Source: Nannochloropsis salina CCMP1776
Taxonomy: Eukaryota; Sar; Eustigmatophyceae; Eustigmatales; Monodopsidaceae
Assembly (NCBI GenBank): GCA_004565275.1
Contig: SDOX01000007.1
Span: 508,115-572,114 of the forward strand
Direction: 5' to 3'
DNA length: 64,000 nt
The translations under genes were made by a program, and so were the position numbers. The notes under the pieces are model-generated. The model saw only the letters and a program-made list of their open reading frames with translations, was not told the origin of the DNA and did no database searches. Below are positions 7,797-50,752 of this stretch, one piece after another; position 1 is the first letter of the stretch; the number at the start of each line of letters is the position of its first letter.

Positions 7797-10079
7797 TTAA
7801 AAATCTAAGTCGTCCAGGCGCAAGGCATCGGCATTGCGGTTAATGAAATCCTTTCGTGGGCCCACAGCGTCGCCCATCAATAGCATGAACATCTTGTCTG
7901 CCTCCGCCGCGTCCTCAATCGTTACCTGTTTCAGTATCCTTGTCGCTGGATTCATGGTCGTCTCCCACAGTTGCACGGGCATCATCTCACCGAGGCCCTT
8001 GAAACGCTGCAATGACAAAGCCGTTTTGCCCTTAAAAGAGCTTTGTACCTCTGCTAATTCCTCTTGTGTATACGCGTACTTGACAGTCTTCCCTTGCGTC
8101 ACCTTATAAAGCGGCGGACAGGCGATGTAGACATAGCCGCGTTCAACCAAAGCTCGCTGATATCGGAAGAGGAACGTGAGAAGAAGGATGCGAATGTGGG
8201 CACCATCCACATCCGCGTCGGTCATGATCATAATCCGGTGATATCGGAGCGTTGCGGGATCAAACTCATTGCCCTTGATCCCGAGTCCCAACGCCGAGAT
8301 TAGCGCTTGTAGCTCTGTGTTTTGGTAAATTTTCTCCGTGGCTGCTTTTTCAATGTTCAGTATTTTCCCACGCAGAGGAAGAATGGCTTGAGTGCGCCGA
8401 TCCCGTCCCTGCTTGGCGCTACCAGCCGCTGAGTCGCCCTCGACGATGTAAATTTCGCTCTCGACCGGGTCACGCGAGGAACAGTCGGCCAGTTTCCCGG
8501 GCAAGACCGTGGTCTGTAGCAAGGACTTGCGCCGCACCATGTCTCTGGCAGCTTTGGCAGCCTGGGCTGCTTGTTGAGCGGACATGGCTTTGTCGACGAT
8601 GGCACCCAAGACCCTCGGGTTCCACTCAAACGTGTTCACAAGACTTTCGCCGACGATCGTGTCGACTATCCCACGCACCTCCGGATTACCCAGGCGGTTC
8701 TTCGTCTGTCCTTCAAACTCTGGATCTGGAACTTTGACGCTCACTATTGCTGTCAGTCCCTCCCGAACGAAGTCCCCGGTCAAATTGTCCTTTCCGTCCT
8801 TGAGCTTTCCCGCCTTCCGCGCCATGCTGTTGATGGTGCGCGTCAAGACGCTCTTCAAACCGTCCAAGTGCGTGCCCCCGTCTCCGGTCCGAATGCCGTT
8901 CGCAAAGCCGATCAAGAGATCGTCATACTGGTCCTTGCTCCACCGGAGGGCGGCCTCGACGGCGACCCCGTTCTTCTCACCGGCCGCGTGGATGACTGCG
9001 ACGTCAGGATGCAGCTCCTCTTTGCTGCTGCACATCAATTGCACGTATTCCCGGATTCCTCCCTCATGAAAGAATTCCTGTCTCCGGCCTTCTCCGCGCT
9101 CATCTGTCATGACGATTCTGATCCCCGCATTCAAGTAGGCGAGTTCGTCCAACCTGCCCGACACACGATCAAATTCAAACGTCGTGCTGGTCTTAAAGAT
9201 CTCCGCGTCTGGCTTGAATCGCACGCTCGTTCCGCTGGTGGAGGAACCTATCACCGCGTCTGGGTCCGGAATGATCTCCATTTCCCCCAGCGGCTTCCCC
9301 CTGGCGAAGCGCATGATATGCAGCTTCCCGTCGCGCCGCACCGTGGCCGTCAAAGACTCACTGAGGGCGTTCACCACGGAGACCCCCACTCCGTGCAGGC
9401 CACCTGAGACCTTGTACCCTGAGGCGTCGCCACCAAACTTCCCGCCCGCATGCAGAACTGTCAGTACCGTCTCCAGGGCGGAACGGCCCGTCTTGGAGTG
9501 TACCTCGCAGGGTATGCCGCGTCCGTCGTCCGAGACAGTGACGCTGCCATCCGCGCCGATGGTCACCTCCACGGCCGTGCAATGCCCAGCCAGCGCCTCG
9601 TCGATGGAGTTGTCGACAACCTCAAAGATTAGGTGGTGGAGACCCTTGACTCCTGTGGATCCGATATACATGCCTGGCCGCTTCCGCACCGGTTCCAGGC
9701 CCTCAAGCACCGTGATCTTATCGGCCCCGTAAGACCCGCCCACAGGAGTCGACGGTGGGGAACTCATGCTTGGTAGGGGCGGTGGAGCGATGCTTGTGGC
9801 TTCCATGCCCACGGTGCGACGTCGTCGGGTCGCCGTTGGCTTGACGCTGAAAGCACGTCGCTGGCTGGTACTGCTCACGCGGGTACTGGCCAAGGCGGAG
9901 AGTCCTGAAAGCCTCGGAGAGGAAGACGTTGGAAAACCAAAGACTCTCATTCCGGACCAGCCTCCGATTAGACGCAGCATGACGAGGGCCATACCTCCCA
10001 AGGGCCGACTGAGCATGTCTGTGGTGAAGTAGATAGAAGCGGCGGCGACTGAAAGTCTTGAGGGCAGCCGACTAACCAT
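7797..10079 (-). CDS. GYRB: DNA gyrase subunit B, organelle-targeted
   Basis: Type IIA topoisomerase ATPase subunit, which with GyrA introduces negative supercoils into plastid and/or mitochondrial DNA. The frame is intronless and gives 760 residues from the first ATG at 10079 (ccATGG context); the frame runs further upstream but without an ATG. About 115 extra N-terminal residues, rich in S, R and A and including QRRAFSVKP, look like an organelle presequence. They precede the GHKL ATPase domain (VRKRPGMYIGST, VVDNSIDEALAG, DDGRGIP, GGLHGVGVSVVNA). The transducer follows, then TOPRIM (YIVEGDSAAGSAKQGRD and TDADVDGAHIR), and the protein ends NADALRLDDLDF as bacterial GyrB does. Bacterial ancestry, by organelle gene transfer, is established for this family in plants and algae. 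Whether it goes to plastid, mitochondrion or both is open: I see no clear signal peptide with an ASAFAP-type site. Confidence 0.93.
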   Translation of the reverse strand: MVSRLPSRLSVAAASIYFTTDMLSRPLGGMALVMLRLIGGWSGMRVFGFPTSSSPRLSGLSALASTRVSSTSQRRAFSVKPTATRRRRTVGMEATSIAPPPLPSMSSPPSTPVGGSYGADKITVLEGLEPVRKRPGMYIGSTGVKGLHHLIFEVVDNSIDEALAGHCTAVEVTIGADGSVTVSDDGRGIPCEVHSKTGRSALETVLTVLHAGGKFGGDASGYKVSGGLHGVGVSVVNALSESLTATVRRDGKLHIMRFARGKPLGEMEIIPDPDAVIGSSTSGTSVRFKPDAEIFKTSTTFEFDRVSGRLDELAYLNAGIRIVMTDERGEGRRQEFFHEGGIREYVQLMCSSKEELHPDVAVIHAAGEKNGVAVEAALRWSKDQYDDLLIGFANGIRTGDGGTHLDGLKSVLTRTINSMARKAGKLKDGKDNLTGDFVREGLTAIVSVKVPDPEFEGQTKNRLGNPEVRGIVDTIVGESLVNTFEWNPRVLGAIVDKAMSAQQAAQAAKAARDMVRRKSLLQTTVLPGKLADCSSRDPVESEIYIVEGDSAAGSAKQGRDRRTQAILPLRGKILNIEKAATEKIYQNTELQALISALGLGIKGNEFDPATLRYHRIMIMTDADVDGAHIRILLLTFLFRYQRALVERGYVYIACPPLYKVTQGKTVKYAYTQEELAEVQSSFKGKTALSLQRFKGLGEMMPVQLWETTMNPATRILKQVTIEDAAEADKMFMLLMGDAVGPRKDFINRNADALRLDDLDF

Positions 10080-10894
10080 CCATGGAGAACTCAGTCCAAT
10101 ATCCTGCCCTCGCACCCTGTGCCTTACGTCCAAGAAGTTTGTGTCGCAAGAATTAAAGGTGAAAAACAAGCTTGACCATTCATTCGAAGCACGGTCAACT
10201 ACGGCTACAAACCCCGTCTAAGTTACCCCTCGTTTGTGTCTCAATATCTCGCCTTCCCCTTTCGCGCCGTCATGGTTTAGACGGGGAGCGCTTAGTGCAG
10301 GCCTGGAGCCACCACTCGAACGCGGTCGTGTCCCACGTGTTGGGACTGACATCCGTGCTACATGTGAAAAGAGCATGGATAAAGGGCATTCCTGTCGTCG
10401 GGACGACCCGACCATGTTTTTCCTGCGCGCACAGGCCTGAACCTAGTAACTTTCTGACTGCTTGTCTTGAGGCTTCGAAGAAGCAGCAACTAGGAGCAAC
10501 CAGTGAATCAATCACCGGCACAGTTTGTAGGTGAACCCGGCACTGGTGATCAGTAGAGGCAAACCATACATTCACGCGTATTGAATGCAACTGTATGGAA
10601 ATGCCTGCACTCTGTTTCGTTGTCTCTGCTTTTCTTGGCCGGGCTGGACCACGCCGCTCGCCTAATTTCAAAATTATGATGTGTGGCTGGCACCCCTACA
10701 CCATGACAAGGTACCTCAACTCGAGGAACGCCGCCCACGCTCATCCAGTCGACATCTTTCTCACACAGGTAGTACACATTTGTGCGTGACCTGTTCAGAG
10801 GAGGCGGTGGGAAGTGAGATCTTCACGACCAAACCATTATTTGCGGAAAGAAGCGGCAGCAGCAGTCCCCTGAAAACAGTCTCCTCGTCTTGTC
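10080..10894. promoter_or_regulatory. divergent intergenic region between GYRB and SEC61 alpha
   Basis: About 815 bp separate two start codons that point away from each other, so both promoters must lie here. Frames within it are short and lack recognisable protein character. No named motif was identified. Confidence 0.4.
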
Positions 10895-22280: not shown

Positions 22281-24335
22281 ATGCTTCGACAAGTCTTGCG
22301 TCGTGCTCCCAGCCGGGCACTTGCGATGCAGATGCGTGGCATGGCAGGTAAGCACTACAGATTCTCAGTGGAACATTTATAAGGATAAGGAAGGCAATAT
22401 GACTATTGTGAGGGTGATATTAGCTGCATCGTGGATTGAAACGCTGCCGGCAGACGACTTTGGGGATGAGAGTGAAGTGAACTGCTCGTACGCCTCCTGG
22501 GAGAATGTTCGTGGCCCGGGAATCAGTCAGGTCACCACCTTAAATTTAAAACTTGTGTCGTTTTTATGAGCCATGGAATCTTTGGCACGCCACTTTATTG
22601 ACAAACTTCTTTGATCACGTCCCTTGTCTCCTCACCTCTTCTGTGCCACGGTTTCTTGCCCCTAACCTCCCCAGGCGGGAAGGACGTTCGGTTTGGCGTG
22701 GACGGCCGCGCGCAGATGCTCATGGGCGTTGACAAGCTGGCGGACGCCGTACAAGTGACGTTGGGACCAAAAGGCCGGAACGCCATCATCGACCAGCCGT
22801 TTGGAGCCCCCAAGATCACCAAGGACGGCGTGACGGTGGCGAAGAGTATCGAATTCAAGGAGCGTTTTGTCAACATGGGCGCTGCGCTCGTGCGGCAGGT
22901 TGCGAGCAAGACCAACGATGTGGCCGGGGACGGGACCACCACCGCCACGGTGTTGACGCGGGCCATCTTCTCGGAGGGTTGCAAGGCGGTGGCGGCCGGG
23001 CTGAACCCGATGGACCTGAGGAGAGGCACGCAGCTCGCCGTCGACCACGTGGTTGGCGTCTTGAACCAAATCTCCCGCGCCGTCACCTCCAAGGCGGAGG
23101 TGTCACAGGTGGGAACGATCTCGGCGAACGGGGAGAAAGTAATTGGAGACCTGCTGGCGGACGCGATGGAGCGGGTGGGAAAGGAGGGCGTGATCACCGT
23201 CCAGGACGGAAAGACGCTTCACAACGAGCTGGAGGTGGTGGAGGGGATGAAGTTCGACCGGGGCTACATCTCCCCCTACTTCATCACCGACAACAAGACC
23301 CAGACGGCGGAGCTTGAGAACCCCTACATCCTGCTAGTCGAGAAGAAGATCACCTCCATTCAGTCCCTCATCCCGCTCCTGGAGATGGTGGTGAAGACCC
23401 AGCGGCCCCTGCTCATCATCGCCGAAGACGTGGAGTCCGAGGCTCTGGCTACACTGGTGGTCAACAAACTGCGGGCGGGGATCAAGGTGGCGGCCGTGAA
23501 GGCGCCAGGCTTTGGAGACAACAGGAAGGCGACGCTCCAGGACATCGCGGTGCTGACTGGGGGGCAGGTGATCAGTGAGGACCTGGGCCTGAAGGTGGAG
23601 AATACCACGGAGGACATGCTGGGCACTTCCAAGAAGGTGACAGTCTCTAAGGATGACACCCTCATTTTGCACGGAAACGGGGCCCGGGACGCCATCGACG
23701 AGCGCTGCTTGCTGTTGAAGGACTCCATCGCCGCCACTGCCTCGGACTACGAGAAGGAGAAGCTACAGGAGCGCTTGGCGAAGCTGTCGGGGGGCGTGGC
23801 GGTGATTAAGGTGGGCGGGGCCTCAGAGGTGGAGGTGAATGAGAAGAAGGACCGCGTGGTGGACGCTTTGAATGCGACGCGGGCGGCGGTGGAGCAGGGC
23901 ATCGTCCCCGGGGGGGGCTTGGCCCTGTTGTGGGCTTCCAAGCAGCTGGAGGACGTCAAGGCGAAGGTCTCGAACATGGACCAGCGCATCGGCGTCGAGA
24001 TTATTGAGAAGGCGCTGATCGCACCCGTCAAATCCATCGCCAACAACGCCGGTGTGGAAGGGGCGGTGGTAGTGGGGGAACTCATGAAGAAGGACAAACC
24101 AGAGCTGGGGTACAACGCGCAGACAGGCGAGTACGTTGACATGTTCGAGGCAGGGATTATCGACCCGACGAAGGTGGTGCGAACGGCGCTGGTAGACGCC
24201 CAGTCGGTGGCGGCGTTGATGATTACGACGGAGGCCATGGTGGCGGACCTTCCCAAAGACGAGGGGGACACACCGGCGATGCCGGGGATGGGAGGGATGG
24301 GAGGCATGGGAGGCATGGGTGGCATGGGATTCTAG
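22281..24335 (+). CDS. HSP60: mitochondrial chaperonin HSP60 (Cpn60, group I)
   Basis: Folds imported proteins in the mitochondrial matrix as an ATP-driven double ring with Cpn10. Exon 1 (22281-22347) encodes an arginine-rich presequence, [18 protein letters not shown], and joins exon 2 (22675-24335) at a G|GC glycine codon (donor GTAAGC, acceptor CCCCAG), giving 575 residues. Group I features include [27 protein letters not shown], the ATP-site motif [22 protein letters not shown] in the apical domain, [10 protein letters not shown], and the C-terminal GGM tail with five GGM/GMG units ending MGF. The presequence and the GGM tail favour the mitochondrial over the plastid paralogue. Confidence 0.96.
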
Positions 24336-33235: not shown

Positions 33236-36200
33236 ATGATGCCAAAAGACGGAACCCTGGCCAACAAGAAGGGGCAGGACGGAGAAGCGGCTAAGTCTGC
33301 GCTTGTTGCAGTCCCAAGCAGAGATCATGGGAGAAGCGCCAGCATCACCAGCACCAGCAGCGTCAGCAGCACCAGCAGCAGTGGCAGTGGGGGGACCGCG
33401 GCCGTCGCTATGGTCACAACAGCCCTGACGCGGTAAGTCAGGAGGGATGAGATATGTGCATGACCGGGATATCAAGTCGGACTGGCGTAGAGTGAAAGGC
33501 TTTCAGACCGGAAAGACCGGCCAGAGGGCCGACCACCCGACGTCGTGAGTGATAGCGGTTGGAGACACGCTGTTGACCGCCTCCGCGGCCAGCCATTCAC
33601 GACTTCCAGCATTTTGATCCTCTCTCTTTCCCCTTTTCCCCCTTACCTTTCAGCGGTACCGCCCTGCACGCCGCCCGCTGGGGTCATACCGCCAACCGGG
33701 GCGTGGCCTCGGTGTCCCGCTACTTGAGCAGGACCCTGATCGCCCGAGCTGCCGCCGCCACCGTCACAGAAATGAGCCGGTTCACGGCAGACCGGACCCG
33801 AGAGGTGCTTGACTATGCCACTCTACAGCTTGTCCAGAGCGGGCACAAGCCTCTGCCTCCTGAGAACGGTTGGGGGGACGTGGGCAGGCGGCTGGGCTCG
33901 ATCTCCGCCTACGATCTGCAGCTGATCGACGAAAAAGTCCGGGACGTGGGACTGTCGGACTTTGCAGACATGCTGGGGGTTGCAGACCCTGGAGAGCTGC
34001 TGCGGGTGGCGGAGCTGCGGCTACAGGCGGCCCAAGGTGACGAGGACGCTCAGTACGCCCTTGCGGCGCGCTTTTGTCCTCCTCCTTTCCGCAAACGGGA
34101 CCGTTGCAAGAAATGCCACAAGGCCTTCGGGGTGACCCGCTACCGGCACCATTGCCGGCATTGCGGGGAGAGCTTCTGCCAGGAGCACAGCGCTTTCAGG
34201 CACGCCATTCCCAAGGTCGGATACATGGTCCCGGCCCGGGTATGCGGCGCCTGCAAGGGCCAGCTGGAGGACGAGGACCTTAAAGACCGAATCGTCTGGC
34301 GGATGGTGCGGGTCGAGGCCTTTTTGAAGGACCGTTTGATACCTTACTTTGCCCCGGGGGACCATACGCAGCTGGACAGGGCCTTGCGGACGGTGGGCGG
34401 GTGGGTAAGCCGCGCGGCGCGCCGGGCCCCGCCCCTGCGCAGCACGACGGCCTTGGCTGGCGAAGCCTTGGAGCTCTTCAGCCGGTACGGGTACGCTGGC
34501 GTAGCGGGGGTCTTGCTCCGGCACGAGCACGTGGAGGCGGTGGAGCTGCTGAAGGAGGTGTCGGGGGTGGACGCCGCCTGGCCCGTGACGGGAAGCCAGC
34601 TGAGCGCGGCGATGTACTACCTGCTGGCACGGGGAAGGGGGGAGCGAGGAGCGGCTCCCGATGCCGAGCAGGAGGCGCACCGAGGATGCCCACCTGCCTC
34701 GGACAGCTTGATGCAGGACCTGTTGGACGTGGCGCCCTTGGCCTTGCATTTCGCCTACTGCGACAACCTGGTGGAGATGCAACTCAAGGCACAGCAGCAA
34801 GGGTGGCGGTTGGTGTTCGCCTACGCGCCCCCCGCCGTCCAGGCTGGGCAGCCGGCCTTCGTCTTGCTCTGCCACTTGACCGAAAAGGAGGCTTGCCTGG
34901 TGGTGCGTGGTCCCGACCGGGCGCAGGATGTTCTCGTCGACATCCGGGGCTTGCCCATGCCCTTTCCCCTCGCGGGGGAGGGGGCCGGGAGCGGGGAGAA
35001 GGGCAGCCAGGACAAGGAGAGCGGGTGGGCGAACGTCTCGACGGAGTGGATGGCTTCCTGTGGGGCGGCTGAGGCGGGCCATTGGCTCTTCAGCGAGGTC
35101 TACCCCCATCTCCATCGGCTGGCCAAGGAGGGCTACTCCTTGACGCTGGCGGGGCACTCGGTGGGCGGGGCGGTGGCGGCCTTGCTGGGGGTGCTGATGC
35201 GAGAGGAAGGGATGACGGAGGGGTTGCGGTGCTACACATTTGGTAGCCCTGCCTGCGTGAACCAGAAGCTGGCTCAAGTGTGCGAGGCCTTCGTGACCAC
35301 TGTGGTGCTGCACGACGACGTCATCCCGCGGGTGACACCCACGGGCGTGCGGGGCCTCTTGAAAGACCTGCTCTCGGAGCGGGAGAGGGCAGAGCAGCAT
35401 TGGCAGGACGACGTGGAGGCGATCATCGTCAGGAGCAAAGGCCATTGGGCGCCACGGTGGAGGCGGGTCTTGTCGCGGGGGGGGCGGGAGAAGGGGGTGG
35501 CCCCCGGGAGCCGGTCACTGTCCTTCATTCGGAGCGAGGACCAGGGGGAGAGGGGAGAAGGAGAGGGGGAAGGGTTGACTGGCAGGACGAGGGAAGGCGA
35601 GGGGAAAGAGGGAGGGGATGGGGAGGGCGCGGGGGAGGGGTGGGACAGCTGCGACGACGACCTCGGGAACTACTGGGGCGTGGGCTGCACGCGTGACGTG
35701 GGGTCTGAGGGCTCCGGCGCCGCCTCGAACCGTTACTCGATCCGGCACGAGGACGGCACCACCACCACAGTGAACCTGGCCCTCGCCCGGCGCCGGCTCT
35801 TGGATTCGGGCGGGGACGCGGCGGCTGACCGAGGGAGCTCGGTCTCGAAAAATGTCACGGGCGCCTGCCCCGCGCCTTGCGGGCTTGGCGAGGCGGGCGT
35901 CAACTCCGCGCTCACGTCATTGGAGACTTCTATTCCTCCCGGCCTGGGAGCTGCCTCGTCTCCCGGGGCTGAGAGTGGGGAGGCTGGACGGAGGGAAGGG
36001 GGGGAAGAATTAGGGGGGGGAGGGGCGGGGGAAGGCCGGCTGGAAGGATTCTCGTCGACTCTCGCGCCCCTAGGCTTGGGAGGCGGAGACGACGCGGACG
36101 ATTGGGGGGAGGGTGGGGATGAGAGGGCAGAGAGGGCGGGGGAGGAAGCGCAGGCGTGGATGGGGGACCGGACGGGGTCGCTGCAGGAGGGGGAGAGCGA

Positions 36201-37215
36201 GGGAGAGGAAGAGGAGGAACGGCAGGGCAGGTGGCTCGGATCGGGGGATGCTCCCCCAGCATCTTCGGACGGCATGGGCGCCGAGGAAGAAGGAGGCGCG
36301 GGCCTGGAGCAAAGCTTGGCGCTCTGGAATTTGTCTGGGAGTGAGGGGTCGGAGGCGGCGGCGGCGGCGCCTGGGAGAGAGCCGGACTCCCGCGCAGTGC
36401 TCGAGGTAGAGGGCGTGCCCGTGGACACGAAGCAAGTCTCCGTCAGCACCACTGCGCCCACCGCAGCTGCCGACTCCACCTGCTCCTTCTCCTCCTCCTC
36501 CTCCTCCTTGTCCTCGTCGAGTCCATCGGCGCCGGCCCCTGTGACCGCCAGCACGGGCCAGCTGTCCCGGCAATCTTTAGCTTCAAGTTGGCGGGGCGCC
36601 TTGACCATCCCCGCTGGGAAGGAGGGAGGAAGGGAGGGAGGAAGCAAAAGAGAGGAACACGAGGAAGGAGACGAAGAAGAAGAAGAAGAAGAGGAGGAGG
36701 AGGAGGAGGAAGAAGAGGAAGAGGACTGCGGGATACTGGTGGAGGACGTGAGCCTCCCAGAGCTATACCCGCCGGGTCGTCTGGTTCATATCTACAGCTA
36801 CCGCGGCGTCTATAAGGCCTGCATGCCCCCCCGAAGCTTCCCGGGCCTGCGCCGCATCCCCCTGCAGGGGAATTTGCTGAAGGACCACGCCCCAACGGCC
36901 TACTTCTCCGCTCTCTGCGAAGTGATCGACGTCCGCCGAGCCCCGCAGCCGCCGCCCGCGTGGGAGGGGTTCAAGGAGAAGGAGGCCTGCGCCTGCTGTG
37001 CGGTGGATTTGACCTGGCAGCGGGCCACGGCCAGCGAGGCGCATCGGGACCGGGAGAAGCACAATTGTCGCTGCTGCGGTGGACTGGTTTGTCAGGATTG
37101 CTCCCGGCATCGTCGGGCCTTGCCCTCCATCGGGCTCTCTGCGCCTGCTCGGGTCTGCGACCGGTGTTTTTTCGGAGGAAAGCAGTCGGCAGTGGAGGCG
37201 ACGGAGCGTGGATGA
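33236..37215 (+). CDS. class 3 lipase with two FYVE-type zinc fingers
   Basis: Exon 1 (33236-33432) and exon 2 (33654-37215) join at a CG|C arginine codon (donor GTAAGT, acceptor TTTCAG), giving 1252 residues. Domain order: a serine/threonine-rich start; FYVE finger 1 at about 210-268 (RCKKCHKAF, RYRHHCRHCGESFC, ARVCGACK), with the basic RHHCR patch that binds PI3P; a lipase_3 domain at about 430-650 with nucleophile elbow LAGHSVGGAVAALLG and FGSPACVN; some 450 disordered residues rich in G, E and S, including a poly-glutamate run coded at about 36670-36725; and FYVE-like finger 2 at about 1165-1235 (CACCAVDLTW, KHNCRCCGGLVC, ARVCDRC), which lacks the RHHCR patch. Inference: a diacylglycerol or phospholipid hydrolase recruited to endosomes by PI3P. 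ATGs at 33236 and 33239 are adjacent, so the start is unclear by one residue. Confidence 0.85.
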
Positions 37216-46700: not shown

Positions 46701-47267
46701 TTTATGACTGAATATCTTGATCCTGTGTTTATACGCATTGTACGGTTGGCGAAAGGGCACAAAATATATGGATGAGATCATTTTCTTCCCAGCTCGTATC
46801 TTGCCCCCGTCTTCGAATCGAGGGTAGACGCGGACAGAAGAAGTTGCGATGGAGCTCTTTTTAATCGCCTCAAAGGCCGCGCTGCCAGGGTACCAAGCCC
46901 TACACATGCGTCACAATGCGCACACTTGAGTTTCCACCCGGATGTCCCCCGACTCCCCAGGCCTTGAGACCTGGAATGCTCCCCTTTGATCAGGCGCAGT
47001 ATCTGCAGAGGCGGCTTCCCTCGACCTCGACCACGGCTTGAAGCCCCCAACGGCTACCCCCCGCACCCAGCCTGGCCCTCCCGTCTTCTCACCGCTTTCA
47101 GCTCACACAACAGCGACCTTGCCATGCGAATCGACATCCTGCTCGTGGTTTAACTTTTTGTGCGTCGTGGTTGGTCGTTGGCATCCCCTGTGCTGGCCTC
47201 CCGTTACGCCCATTGACTTAAACGTGGTCCTTTTCACGCGTTGTCCGCTGGCGGGGTACCTCGGAAA
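46701..47267. promoter_or_regulatory. divergent region between MED6 and the DysF-SNARE gene
   Basis: About 570 bp between inferred outward-facing starts. An open frame on + from 47038 lacks protein character. Both promoters are expected here. Confidence 0.35.
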
Positions 47268-48770
47268 ATGGAGCATCAACAAGAGCCATCACCATTCAGG
47301 CAAAGTAGTAGCTCCAGCAAAAGCAACCGCTTGAAGAACATTGGAAGGAGTGGGGGCTGGGGCAAAAATTATGCGGCCGAGGCTTCCACGGTTCCTGCTT
47401 CCCATACAAATAAAGTGCCCGCCTCCACCTCTCTGCCCCCCGCCCCCCGATCAAATCGGCAAGAAATCTTAGTCGAGGTCTACGAGCATGAACGTTGGTC
47501 TCGTAAGGCAGACAGCTGGATTCCTTCGGACGCTCCCTCTCGCGCACACTGGTGCTCCGCACTGGGCGAGCCCTCCCAGGCCCCCGGAGAAATGACCCCG
47601 CCTGCCGACTTCGGATGGGTAAGCAACTGGCGCGTGGCCATCTCAGCCAGCATATCCCCCTCCCCAAATCCCACTCCTGAGAAGCCGTGCTCCTCGAGCA
47701 CCAGCGCCGCGCCCACCACCGCCTCCTTTTCTGGGCCGCCGGGTCCCGTGCTCCAGGACCGTGGGGGCTGGGAGTACGCCACCCATCCGGACAAATTCAA
47801 CCGTCCCGAGCGCGCCCCACGCGGGGAAGAGAAATGGAGCGACCGTGCCCGACGACGGCGTTGGATTCGGCTGGCGCGGCACAAATCATGGCTGCCGGCT
47901 GTGACGGCGCCGGAGGAGCTGGGCCAGCAAGCGAGGGACGGCCTGAAGGGGCTCGTGCGAGGCCGGCGGACTGTCCAGGAGCTCTGTGGCCTCTTGGGCA
48001 CCCGCAGAGACTCCTCGGACCTACGGTCGAAGCTTTTCAGCCTGGTGGACATGGTGCGGCAGCATGGGCGGGAGATCGAACACGTGTTGCGAAGTTTGCG
48101 CGGGAAGGGAGGGGAAGGCGGGGGGGAGGGCGGGAGGGCGATGGGAGAGGTCAAGAAATGGAAGAACGATCTCGGGCGGGAGCAAAGGCTCTTCGATGAC
48201 GTGGTCCGTAACGTGGAGCGCCGGTGTCGCAGCGTGCCGCTGGCCAGCCTCCCGGGGGGGGGGCTGACATCCTCCGAGGCCTGCACGGGCCCGGCGGGGG
48301 CAGGCGCAGCGGCCGACACGGGGGGAGGCTCCGGTGCCAGAGGCGAGGCCCTGATCACGGCCGGTGGTCCAGGCGGTGGCGGGGCGGCGGCTGCTTCGCT
48401 CTCGGCGTTCTCCTCCGCGCCGGCGACCCTGCCAGGACCCTACGCGGGCTGGGCCGGCCACGGGAGGGGCGAGCGCTCGGCTCAGGAGGAGGCTCTGCTC
48501 AAACAGCTTCAGTTCCAAGACGAGGAGGAGGTGATGCTGGCGCTGGCGCAGGAGCGGGAGCTGGCGATCCGGGAGGTGACCTCGCATTTGGTGGAGTTGA
48601 AGGACGTGTTCTCGGATTTCGCCGAGCTGGTGCAAGGGCAGCAAGAGGGAGTGGACGCGGTCTGCCGGAACGTGGAGGTGGCCCACGCCAAGACCGAACA
48701 GGGCTACGAGGCGATCTTGAAGGCGAACGAAGGGCAGAGGGCGGAGACGGGGGGTTGTGTGCTGTCGTGA
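47268..48770 (+). CDS. DysF-domain syntaxin (Qa-SNARE) ending in a CaaX box
   Basis: 500 residues from the ATG at 47268, the first ATG in the frame; no intron. A dysferlin/peroxin (DysF) domain lies at about 67-208. Its N-part is VEVYEHERWSRKADSWIPSD with FGWVSNWRVAI; its C-part is RGGWEYATHPDKFN with RARRRRWIRL, the diagnostic W/R blocks. A syntaxin N-terminal helix region follows (VQELCGLLGTRRDSSDLRSK, like syntaxin 7/Pep12), then a G/A-rich linker. The SNARE motif (about 425-485) reads LVELKDVFSDFAELVQGQQ then EGVDAVCRNVEVAHAKTEQG, with glutamine at the zero layer. Instead of the usual membrane anchor the protein ends ETGGCVLS: CVLS is a classic farnesylation CaaX sequence. Inference: a prenyl-anchored endosomal/vacuolar Qa-SNARE whose DysF part contacts membrane. 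Confidence 0.82.
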   Translation: MEHQQEPSPFRQSSSSSKSNRLKNIGRSGGWGKNYAAEASTVPASHTNKVPASTSLPPAPRSNRQEILVEVYEHERWSRKADSWIPSDAPSRAHWCSALGEPSQAPGEMTPPADFGWVSNWRVAISASISPSPNPTPEKPCSSSTSAAPTTASFSGPPGPVLQDRGGWEYATHPDKFNRPERAPRGEEKWSDRARRRRWIRLARHKSWLPAVTAPEELGQQARDGLKGLVRGRRTVQELCGLLGTRRDSSDLRSKLFSLVDMVRQHGREIEHVLRSLRGKGGEGGGEGGRAMGEVKKWKNDLGREQRLFDDVVRNVERRCRSVPLASLPGGGLTSSEACTGPAGAGAAADTGGGSGARGEALITAGGPGGGGAAAASLSAFSSAPATLPGPYAGWAGHGRGERSAQEEALLKQLQFQDEEEVMLALAQERELAIREVTSHLVELKDVFSDFAELVQGQQEGVDAVCRNVEVAHAKTEQGYEAILKANEGQRAETGGCVLS

Positions 48771-49815
48771 TGGGAGTGGGGGGAGGGCGGGCCATGCGGG
48801 AGAAGGCGCCAGGATGCACGTGGCGGGCTTGGGGGTGGGAGGAAAAGAGGGCCTAGGAGGGCGGGGCGGAGGGAGGGGCTGAGGGCGGGGTGGAGGGAGG
48901 GGCTGAGGGTGGGGTAGGAGGGGGGGTTGAGGGCGGGGTGGAGGGTGGGCCTGAGGGCAGGGTGCAGGGAGGGGCTGAGGGCAGGGTGCAGGGAGGGGCT
49001 GAGAGCAAGACTACGGGGGAGGCTTTGCGGCGGAGGCATGCGTGATTTTAGAAAAAAACAGAGATAGGAGCGAGACGGGTCAGGGTATCGCGGGATAGGC
49101 AGGGGACTGCGTAGCGGCGCACTTTGGAAGGAATCCGATGGAGGCTGTAGAGTCACAAATGTACAGGGAAGGATCAAAGAGGGATCATGTTGATGACATG
49201 TCGATAAAGCAGTAAAGTCGATTGATGTAGCACGTGTGATTTCTTTTGCCGTGTTGTCTGAATGTGCTACTAATTACAGGGCACACATGAAGGAGTATAA
49301 CCCTCATCAAGCGAGGCGGGTTTTTTAAACCATCCTTTTTCCCATCCCTCCTCAGCCATGCATAGCGTGAGACTCAGATGAGCTCGCGGACACGCCCAGT
49401 GCACGCTCAGACATCTTTATGGGGTCCTGCAACATCCCCAGGCGCCACGCACTATCCTTGCCGCTTCTTTCTCTAGAAGGGGACCCTCGGGGACAACAAT
49501 CCACGTTCTTGCTCTCCAACACATAACCGCTTCATTTGACGCGAATAATAATGGAGGCAAGCGCCTGTGAACAAAGCATTCTCATTCCACCTATGTAACT
49601 GCCGAGAGTCCTTTCTTACGCCGTTTTGTGTCGGGCGCTGTGTGCGTCCGCGTGTGAGTATCGAGATTAATGATTTTAGCGAGTCTGTGTACAGCCGTCG
49701 GCAGCACGGGACCATTCAATCGCTTCGCTCTCAGCCAATAACTAATGATCTCACCAGAGTATGGCCAGAATACAAATTAGCCTTCCCCCCCACCCCTTTT
49801 TTGAGTCTGGCCGTT
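48771..49815. other. convergent intergenic region with a G-rich minisatellite
   Basis: About 1 kb between the SNARE stop and the deaminase stop. The left part is a G-rich tandem repeat, listed separately. The rest shows no gene. Confidence 0.45.
48858..49010 (+). repeat. G-rich minisatellite, unit about 24 bp
   Basis: Six or so imperfect copies of a unit like GGGAGGGGCTGAGGGCGGGG, about 24 bp long and partly shortened, just after the SNARE stop codon. The + strand has many runs of three or more Gs, so it could form G-quadruplexes in DNA or in the 3' UTR. Confidence 0.7.

Positions 49816-50752
<937 letters not shown>

Follow-up and report, generated by a model that had tools for sequence, protein, structure and literature searches.

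This locus raises the question of whether one gene joins a DysF domain to a Qa-SNARE that ends in a prenylation box, an order of parts that an initial annotation had read from the DNA. The window, meaning the whole stretch of 64,000 nucleotides that was analyzed, contains a forward frame that starts with ATG at 47268, ends with TGA at 48768–48770, and is free of stops upstream to 47217. Open forward frames of at least 500 codons occurred in 0 of 2,000 mononucleotide shuffles of 47217–48770. Sequence and structure prediction bear out the claimed order in a single frame: a DysF domain, an Habc bundle, a Qa-SNARE helix, and a CVLS end (Table 1). The blocks that had been named were all located, with WEYA in GGWEYA (aa 166–171), RRRRWIR at aa 195–201, and LGTRRDS at aa 243–249. 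From its sequence, the gene appears to encode a syntaxin-type SNARE with an N-terminal DysF domain and a prenylation-type tail instead of a transmembrane helix. A second copy was not found in the window among stop-to-stop peptides of at least 40 aa in six frames, a search that intron-split copies could escape and that used the protein itself and small SNARE and DysF profiles, which include it by construction.

Table 1. Positions of the observed and predicted features of the DysF-SNARE gene in the window
Feature	Positions	Strand	Basis
Whole coding frame	47268..48770	+	500 aa + TGA
DysF N-terminal half, aa 68–124 (EVYEHERW ... FGWVSNWRV)	47469..47639	+	Pfam PF06398; TECPR1 alignment, 32% identity
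Candidate in-frame GT-AG segment, 138 nt (GTAAGC...CTCCAG), possible exitron	47619..47756	+	Stop-free, a multiple of 3 nt long
Ser/Pro/Ala-rich insert inside DysF, aa 125–162	47640..47753	+	Unaligned vs TECPR1
DysF C-terminal half, aa 163–206 (GGWEYA ... EEKW ... RRRRWIR)	47754..47885	+	Pfam, phmmer, TECPR1 alignment
Predicted Habc three-helix bundle, aa 215–243, 249–280, 288–322, holds LGTRRDS	47910..48233	+	AlphaFold2 single sequence; Foldseek; Pfam Syntaxin_2 below cut-off
Gly/Ala-rich linker, aa 323–404, predicted disordered	48234..48479	+	pLDDT <50 for aa 325–401
Continuous predicted helix, aa 405–494, Qa-SNARE layers −7 (I434) to +8 (A486)	48480..48749	+	AlphaFold2; phmmer; layers
Zero-layer glutamine Q458	48639..48641	+	Invariant in four aligned sequences
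C-terminal CVLS, CaaX-type prenylation box, Cys497	48756..48767	+	Sequence; no transmembrane helix before

A profile search, the check that the initial annotation had named for the DysF side, found the domain. The single Pfam-A family above its cut-off was Pex24p (PF06398; E = 1.8e-7; 31 bits with a cut-off of 26.8), and the DysF fragment alone gave E = 2.7e-8. The match spans aa 54–201 of the protein and only positions 234–358 of the 358 in the profile, which we take to be the DysF part of Pex24-type proteins. A reading as a peroxin (Pex24/Pex30) was rejected, as only this last third of the profile matches. No membrane-shaping region, a Pex24/Pex30 feature, was found before the DysF domain, and the protein is without a hydrophobic segment. 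The DysF domain of TECPR1 was a weak match in a phmmer search of the PDB (E = 0.044). When aligned to the printed DysF pieces of TECPR1, an alignment from which seven TECPR1 residues at the insert site are absent, the two halves have 32% identity and score 15.8 bits, a value reached by 0 of 500 shuffles (maximum, 9.0). L3MBTL proteins also matched the DysFN region with phmmer (E = 0.095 to 2.3), some near the TECPR1 score. An MBT-repeat identity was rejected and these matches were attributed to chance, since a DysF-like Trp/Arg pattern spans both halves and Pfam gives Pex24p alone. TECPR1 numbering was set by an offset of 57, with which W77, W116, W118, W122, W138, and W154 land on Trp in the printed chain. 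The stacking residues described for TECPR1 are W116, W118, W122, W138, R159, R161, R165, and R167 (Boyle et al., PMC10476172); six of the eight are identical here, with Phe at W116 and Ala at R167. The protein has both a DysFN and a DysFC half with a Trp/Arg stacking core, the features that mark a DysF-domain protein. AlphaFold2 run on the single sequence misfolds this half, with pLDDT of 30–60 per block and short helices where strands are expected.

The candidate exitron in the DysF coding region has a pyrimidine content of 61%, compared with 43% in the remaining frame. Its removal would delete VSNWRV, with the conserved W-x-S-x-W-x-V pattern, and leave a SNARE with a broken DysF domain. VSNWRV aligns with the DysF core, so at least one form of the transcript probably retains the segment. 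Its reading as a constitutive intron was demoted to that of an optional isoform, as splicing would remove W-x-S-x-W-x-V. The frame has one other GTRAG donor, at 47503 (frame judged by eye).

The region after DysF is predicted to form an N-terminal Habc bundle of the syntaxin type. An AlphaFold2 model of the full protein built without an alignment has a pLDDT of 54.7 and a pTM of 0.31; within aa 211–320, 8 of the 11 ten-residue blocks have pLDDT of 84–93 (remainder, 64–69). A model of the isolated region (pLDDT 78.8, pTM 0.67) has three helices at approximately the same positions. Foldseek matches to the full model were led by two Sso1 chains (E = 3.1e-4 and 6.4e-4), with the N-terminal domain of syntaxin 12 third (E = 0.012). 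With the isolated region as query, syntaxin 12 ranked first (E = 0.028, TM-score 0.77), and syntaxin 1 and Sso1/Sso2 were also identified; no match reached E ≤ 0.001, and designed helical bundles were among the top matches. The Pfam model Syntaxin_2 matched the region at E = 0.0064 and 16.9 bits, below its cut-off of 26.5. The LGTxxDS block is, we assume, a syntaxin 7-type motif.

The SNARE segment was assigned to the Qa class in the initial annotation, and its matches in the PDB support this. A phmmer search with aa 407–500 yielded 31 matches at E ≤ 10, 29 of which are named Sso1, Sso2, or syntaxin; the remaining two are named "SNAP receptor-like protein" and are presumably Vam3-type. The best matches were yeast Sso1 (E = 6.4e-6) and syntaxin 7 (E = 2.1e-4), with syntaxin 13 also among the 31. 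The layers read IVLLFFV-Q-VVVATGIA in a register that we took from the spacing of syntaxin 1A, and the claimed zero-layer glutamine is confirmed as Q458. In this register, 13 of 16 layers are A, V, I, L, M, or F, compared with 3–9 in six shifted registers; T476 and G479 are the weaker layers and the others look intact. None of 500 shuffles reached the real score against three Qa fragments, which were picked from the segment's own top matches. In the profile check proposed for the SNARE side, Syntaxin_2 alone appears, below its cut-off, and the Pfam SNARE models are silent, with nothing for the SNARE segment at E ≤ 10. The sub-class is probably endosomal/vacuolar and syntaxin 7/12-Pep12-like, a type suggested by the Habc fold and the LGTxxDS block; it is ambiguous in that Habc points to syntaxin 12 and the SNARE motif scores best to Sso1, a plasma-membrane type.

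The protein does end in the four residues CVLS, as had been claimed. CVLS also ends H-Ras, a farnesylated protein. The preceding segment (NEGQRAETGG) has no second cysteine and no basic patch, and a lone prenyl group without neighboring cysteines or a basic patch gives a weak membrane hold. The CaaX box, as one motif in one protein, is the weakest part of the observation. The absence of a transmembrane helix from the frame was likewise upheld (the highest hydropathy over 19 residues, 0.87, falls in the Ala/Gly linker), and for the genomic sequence this lack is well supported. A G-rich tandem repeat (48856–49003, forward strand; 24-nt unit, 6.1 copies, 88% matches) begins approximately 85 bases past the stop, in the presumed 3′ UTR.

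Three alternatives concern the ends and the unity of this gene. The DysF-Qa-SNARE could be real and CVLS a chance ending, with the protein held through DysF alone, as Vam7, a Qc-SNARE without a transmembrane helix, is recruited by its own N-terminal PX domain. This is rather unlikely: Vam7 is a precedent for a lipid-binding domain that replaces the anchor in a Q-SNARE, the box is a single motif from one genome with the bare tail described above, and a cysteine at position −4 alone is expected in ~1.5% of proteins, but Cys497 lies 11 residues after the +8 layer, just where a transmembrane helix would begin, and a strict C-aliphatic-aliphatic-[SMQACT] end has a chance of ~4e-4 per protein, a value computed from the residue frequencies of seven window genes that have homology support. 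An artefact of the gene model or assembly at the 3′ end, either a missed transmembrane exon or a frameshift, is quite improbable. In its favor, the gene is read from genomic sequence, 48451–48775 contains 17 GT dinucleotides, a different frame reaches a codon bias of 0.43 over the G-rich repeat past the stop, and a stop-free forward stretch at ~49798–49866 has a hydropathy of 1.7 near a pyrimidine-rich tract. Segments of at least 1.6 are ordinary, however: shuffling that stretch 500 times produced one in 144 cases, and 61 of the 112 window stretches of equal length (both strands) have one. The 1.7 stretch, open for 76 codons, also overlaps the antisense of the end of a convergent deaminase-family gene (49816–50580, reverse strand; Pfam PF00383; presumably TadA-like), which bounds the possible position of a missed 3′ exon. 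No transmembrane segment was found in 48771–49600 (best stop-free hydropathy 1.18), no GTRAG donor was found in frame after 47619, and the codon bias of the frame is 0.55–0.72 across the SNARE part to the stop and −0.22 right behind it. A transmembrane exon after CVLS, which the initial annotation had named as refuting, thus has no convincing candidate in the genomic sequence, the 1.7 stretch being no better than chance. It is highly improbable that two genes or transcripts have been read as one and that DysF and SNARE are separate proteins. The halves do have unlike codon bias, which is ~0 across the DysF half, where an antisense frame scores higher at 47568–47807 (up to 0.46 at 47628–47747), and the candidate GT-AG segment lies in that half. 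The Pfam-backed gyrase B gene scores −0.14 on the same scale, and the overall pattern backs the 3′ end of the frame and carries little information on its first half. Against two genes, the methionines of the 500-aa protein are at positions 1, 109, 262, 292, and 423, the first after DysF (M262) is inside helix Hb, and no Met or stop separates DysF from Habc, which leaves the SNARE half without a separate start that would preserve Habc.

Other genes in the window include a DNA gyrase B gene (7797–10217, reverse strand) and a Cpn60 gene (22602–24335, forward strand), both with N-terminal extensions. In Cpn60, the extension has a hydrophobic stretch and then a Gly-Phe step (HGF) that, judged by eye, we take to resemble heterokont plastid targeting signals. 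The two extensions fit an alga with a secondary plastid. A long forward frame (33577–37215) contains a FYVE-like zinc-finger pattern, CKKCHKAFG...RHHCRHCGESFC.

DysF domains that bind lipids were used to consider what the domain here may contact. The TECPR1 domain binds sphingomyelin, its exposed W77 and W154 are proposed to enter the membrane, and changes at R76, W77, C84, L88, L89, S90, I142, D143, K152, K153, W154, and C157 abolish recruitment (PMC10476172); W154 was confirmed for damaged lysosomes (Corkery et al., PMC10481663). Four of these 12 recruitment residues are kept here (R76, W77, K153, and W154) and eight differ, which weakens a reading as a TECPR1-type sphingomyelin sensor. Together with six of eight stacking residues and both tip tryptophans, this suggests that the fold and the membrane-touching tip are retained and the sphingomyelin site is not. 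DysF domains of Pex30-family proteins bind phosphatidic acid, as described in 2025 (PMC12101077, PMC12101078). The second of these papers extends binding to Pex28, Pex29, Pex31, and the inner DysF of human dysferlin, and maps that of Pex30 to the end used by TECPR1 for sphingomyelin, with aromatic and basic residues as the contacts. By analogy with the Pex30-family and dysferlin domains, phosphatidic acid would be the most plausible ligand of the algal domain, which is basic (pI 9.5). DysF has been named in ferlins, Pex30–32, and a beta-propeller protein (PMC2923515). The role suggested initially, in membrane repair or peroxisome/ER contact, is one option of several, since the Pex30-family and dysferlin domains bind phosphatidic acid and that of TECPR1 binds sphingomyelin.

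The reading that we favor, tentatively and at close to even probability, is that of a Qa-SNARE without a transmembrane helix that is held by a prenylated Cys497 and a DysF-lipid contact and takes part in productive fusion. Cys497 would be prenylated via CVLS, most likely with farnesyl, and the N-terminal DysF domain would provide a second membrane contact, for which the expected weakness of the prenyl group alone, with no second cysteine or basic patch nearby, is an argument. With its tip tryptophans, the basic DysF domain may bind a membrane that is anionic or has packing defects; a high content of phosphatidic acid is the most plausible case. Prenyl group and DysF together would give longer dwell on, and selectivity for, such membranes, where Habc and the SNARE helix could join Qa-Qb-Qc-R complexes to stimulate or modulate fusion. 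After fusion, the protein could go back to the cytosol. We infer prenylation, the lipid bound, the compartment, reversibility, and productive fusion; lipid anchoring and its reversibility, both put forward initially, would follow from the motif. A more specific version is possible but somewhat doubtful. The protein would then be a farnesylated Qa-SNARE with its own membrane-state sensor, recruited from the cytosol only at phosphatidic-acid-rich or damaged membrane to give fusion competence on demand, and perhaps switched by splicing of the 138-nt segment, which would remove the DysF core.

The main rival to productive fusion keeps the architecture and the anchor and makes the protein inhibitory or tethering, forming complexes unable to open a pore and so blocking or holding fusion at DysF-marked membranes. 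We consider it unlikely. A lipid anchor spans one leaflet, and lipid-anchored SNAREs failed or inhibited fusion in several assays, among them geranylgeranylated SNAREs that inhibited yeast exocytosis and lipid-anchored ones that were weak in several reconstitutions (review, PMC5247469). Other work in the same review finds lipid-anchored syntaxin/synaptobrevin or vacuolar SNAREs active, supporting fusion in some assays, and the layers here look intact apart from the weaker T476 and G479. Given these mixed results with engineered proteins, productive fusion leads and an inhibitory or tethering role follows as its main rival.

We searched for relatives and precedents of this arrangement. Pattern scans of viral-contig and prokaryote collections, which are not expected to contain eukaryotes, gave 2, 19, 14, 30, and 5 matches, with no relative confirmed among them. 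Neither a DysF-SNARE fusion nor a CaaX-ending Qa-SNARE was found among the full-text literature matches listed, a scope outside which most subscription papers lie. The parts are all of known kinds, and the combination of DysF, Habc, Qa-SNARE, and CaaX box appears to be new; eukaryote relatives may well be annotated elsewhere.

Compared with known SNAREs, the protein resembles the syntaxin 7/12-Pep12/Vam3 Qa-SNAREs of the endosome and vacuole in its predicted Habc fold and Q zero layer, but it has DysF as an additional N-terminal domain, and CVLS takes the place of the transmembrane helix. Vam7 differs in being a Qc-SNARE with a PX domain instead of DysF, no Habc, and no CaaX box. Ykt6, an R-SNARE, is alike in passing from a SNARE helix to a CaaX box with no transmembrane helix and in having a potentially regulatory N-terminal domain. 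In place of the longin domain and R zero layer that characterize Ykt6, an Habc-like bundle and Q458 were found. Ykt6 combines its longin domain with a CC pair that also allows palmitoylation (PMC7696345), whereas the Qa-SNARE here combines Habc with DysF and has a lone cysteine. Ykt6 is a prenylated SNARE that cycles between cytosol and membrane (PMC7696345), and the SNARE recovered in a Toxoplasma screen was YKT6.1 (PMC10470541).

The C-terminal membrane helix that is usual in Qa-SNAREs is absent here. Syntaxin 11 is not known to have a DysF domain. It is likewise a syntaxin without a transmembrane helix and with lipid on C-terminal cysteine, but its tail is Cys-rich and S-acylated, and the terms "prenyl" and "caax" are absent from the main text of the paper that describes it (PMC4049605). 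This exception means that a missing transmembrane helix does not exclude membership in the Qa-SNARE family. The requirement for a transmembrane anchor in SNAREs has been argued largely from engineered lipid-anchored mutants (review, PMC5247469); a Qa-SNARE that naturally ends in a prenyl-type box, if true, would be a natural experiment on it. Both halves of the protein are addressable by single-residue changes, at Cys497 and at Trp77/Trp190. With TECPR1, the Pex30 family, and dysferlin, the protein has the DysF Trp/Arg stack in common, and with TECPR1 also the tip Arg-Trp and Lys-Trp. It differs from them in an insertion of ~38 residues that parts the two DysF halves and in being without the tectonin propeller, reticulon-like domain, and C2 domains found in these proteins. 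If the reading is true, a lipid-reading DysF domain, found in membrane shapers, ferlins, and TECPR1, would here be tied directly to the fusion machine.
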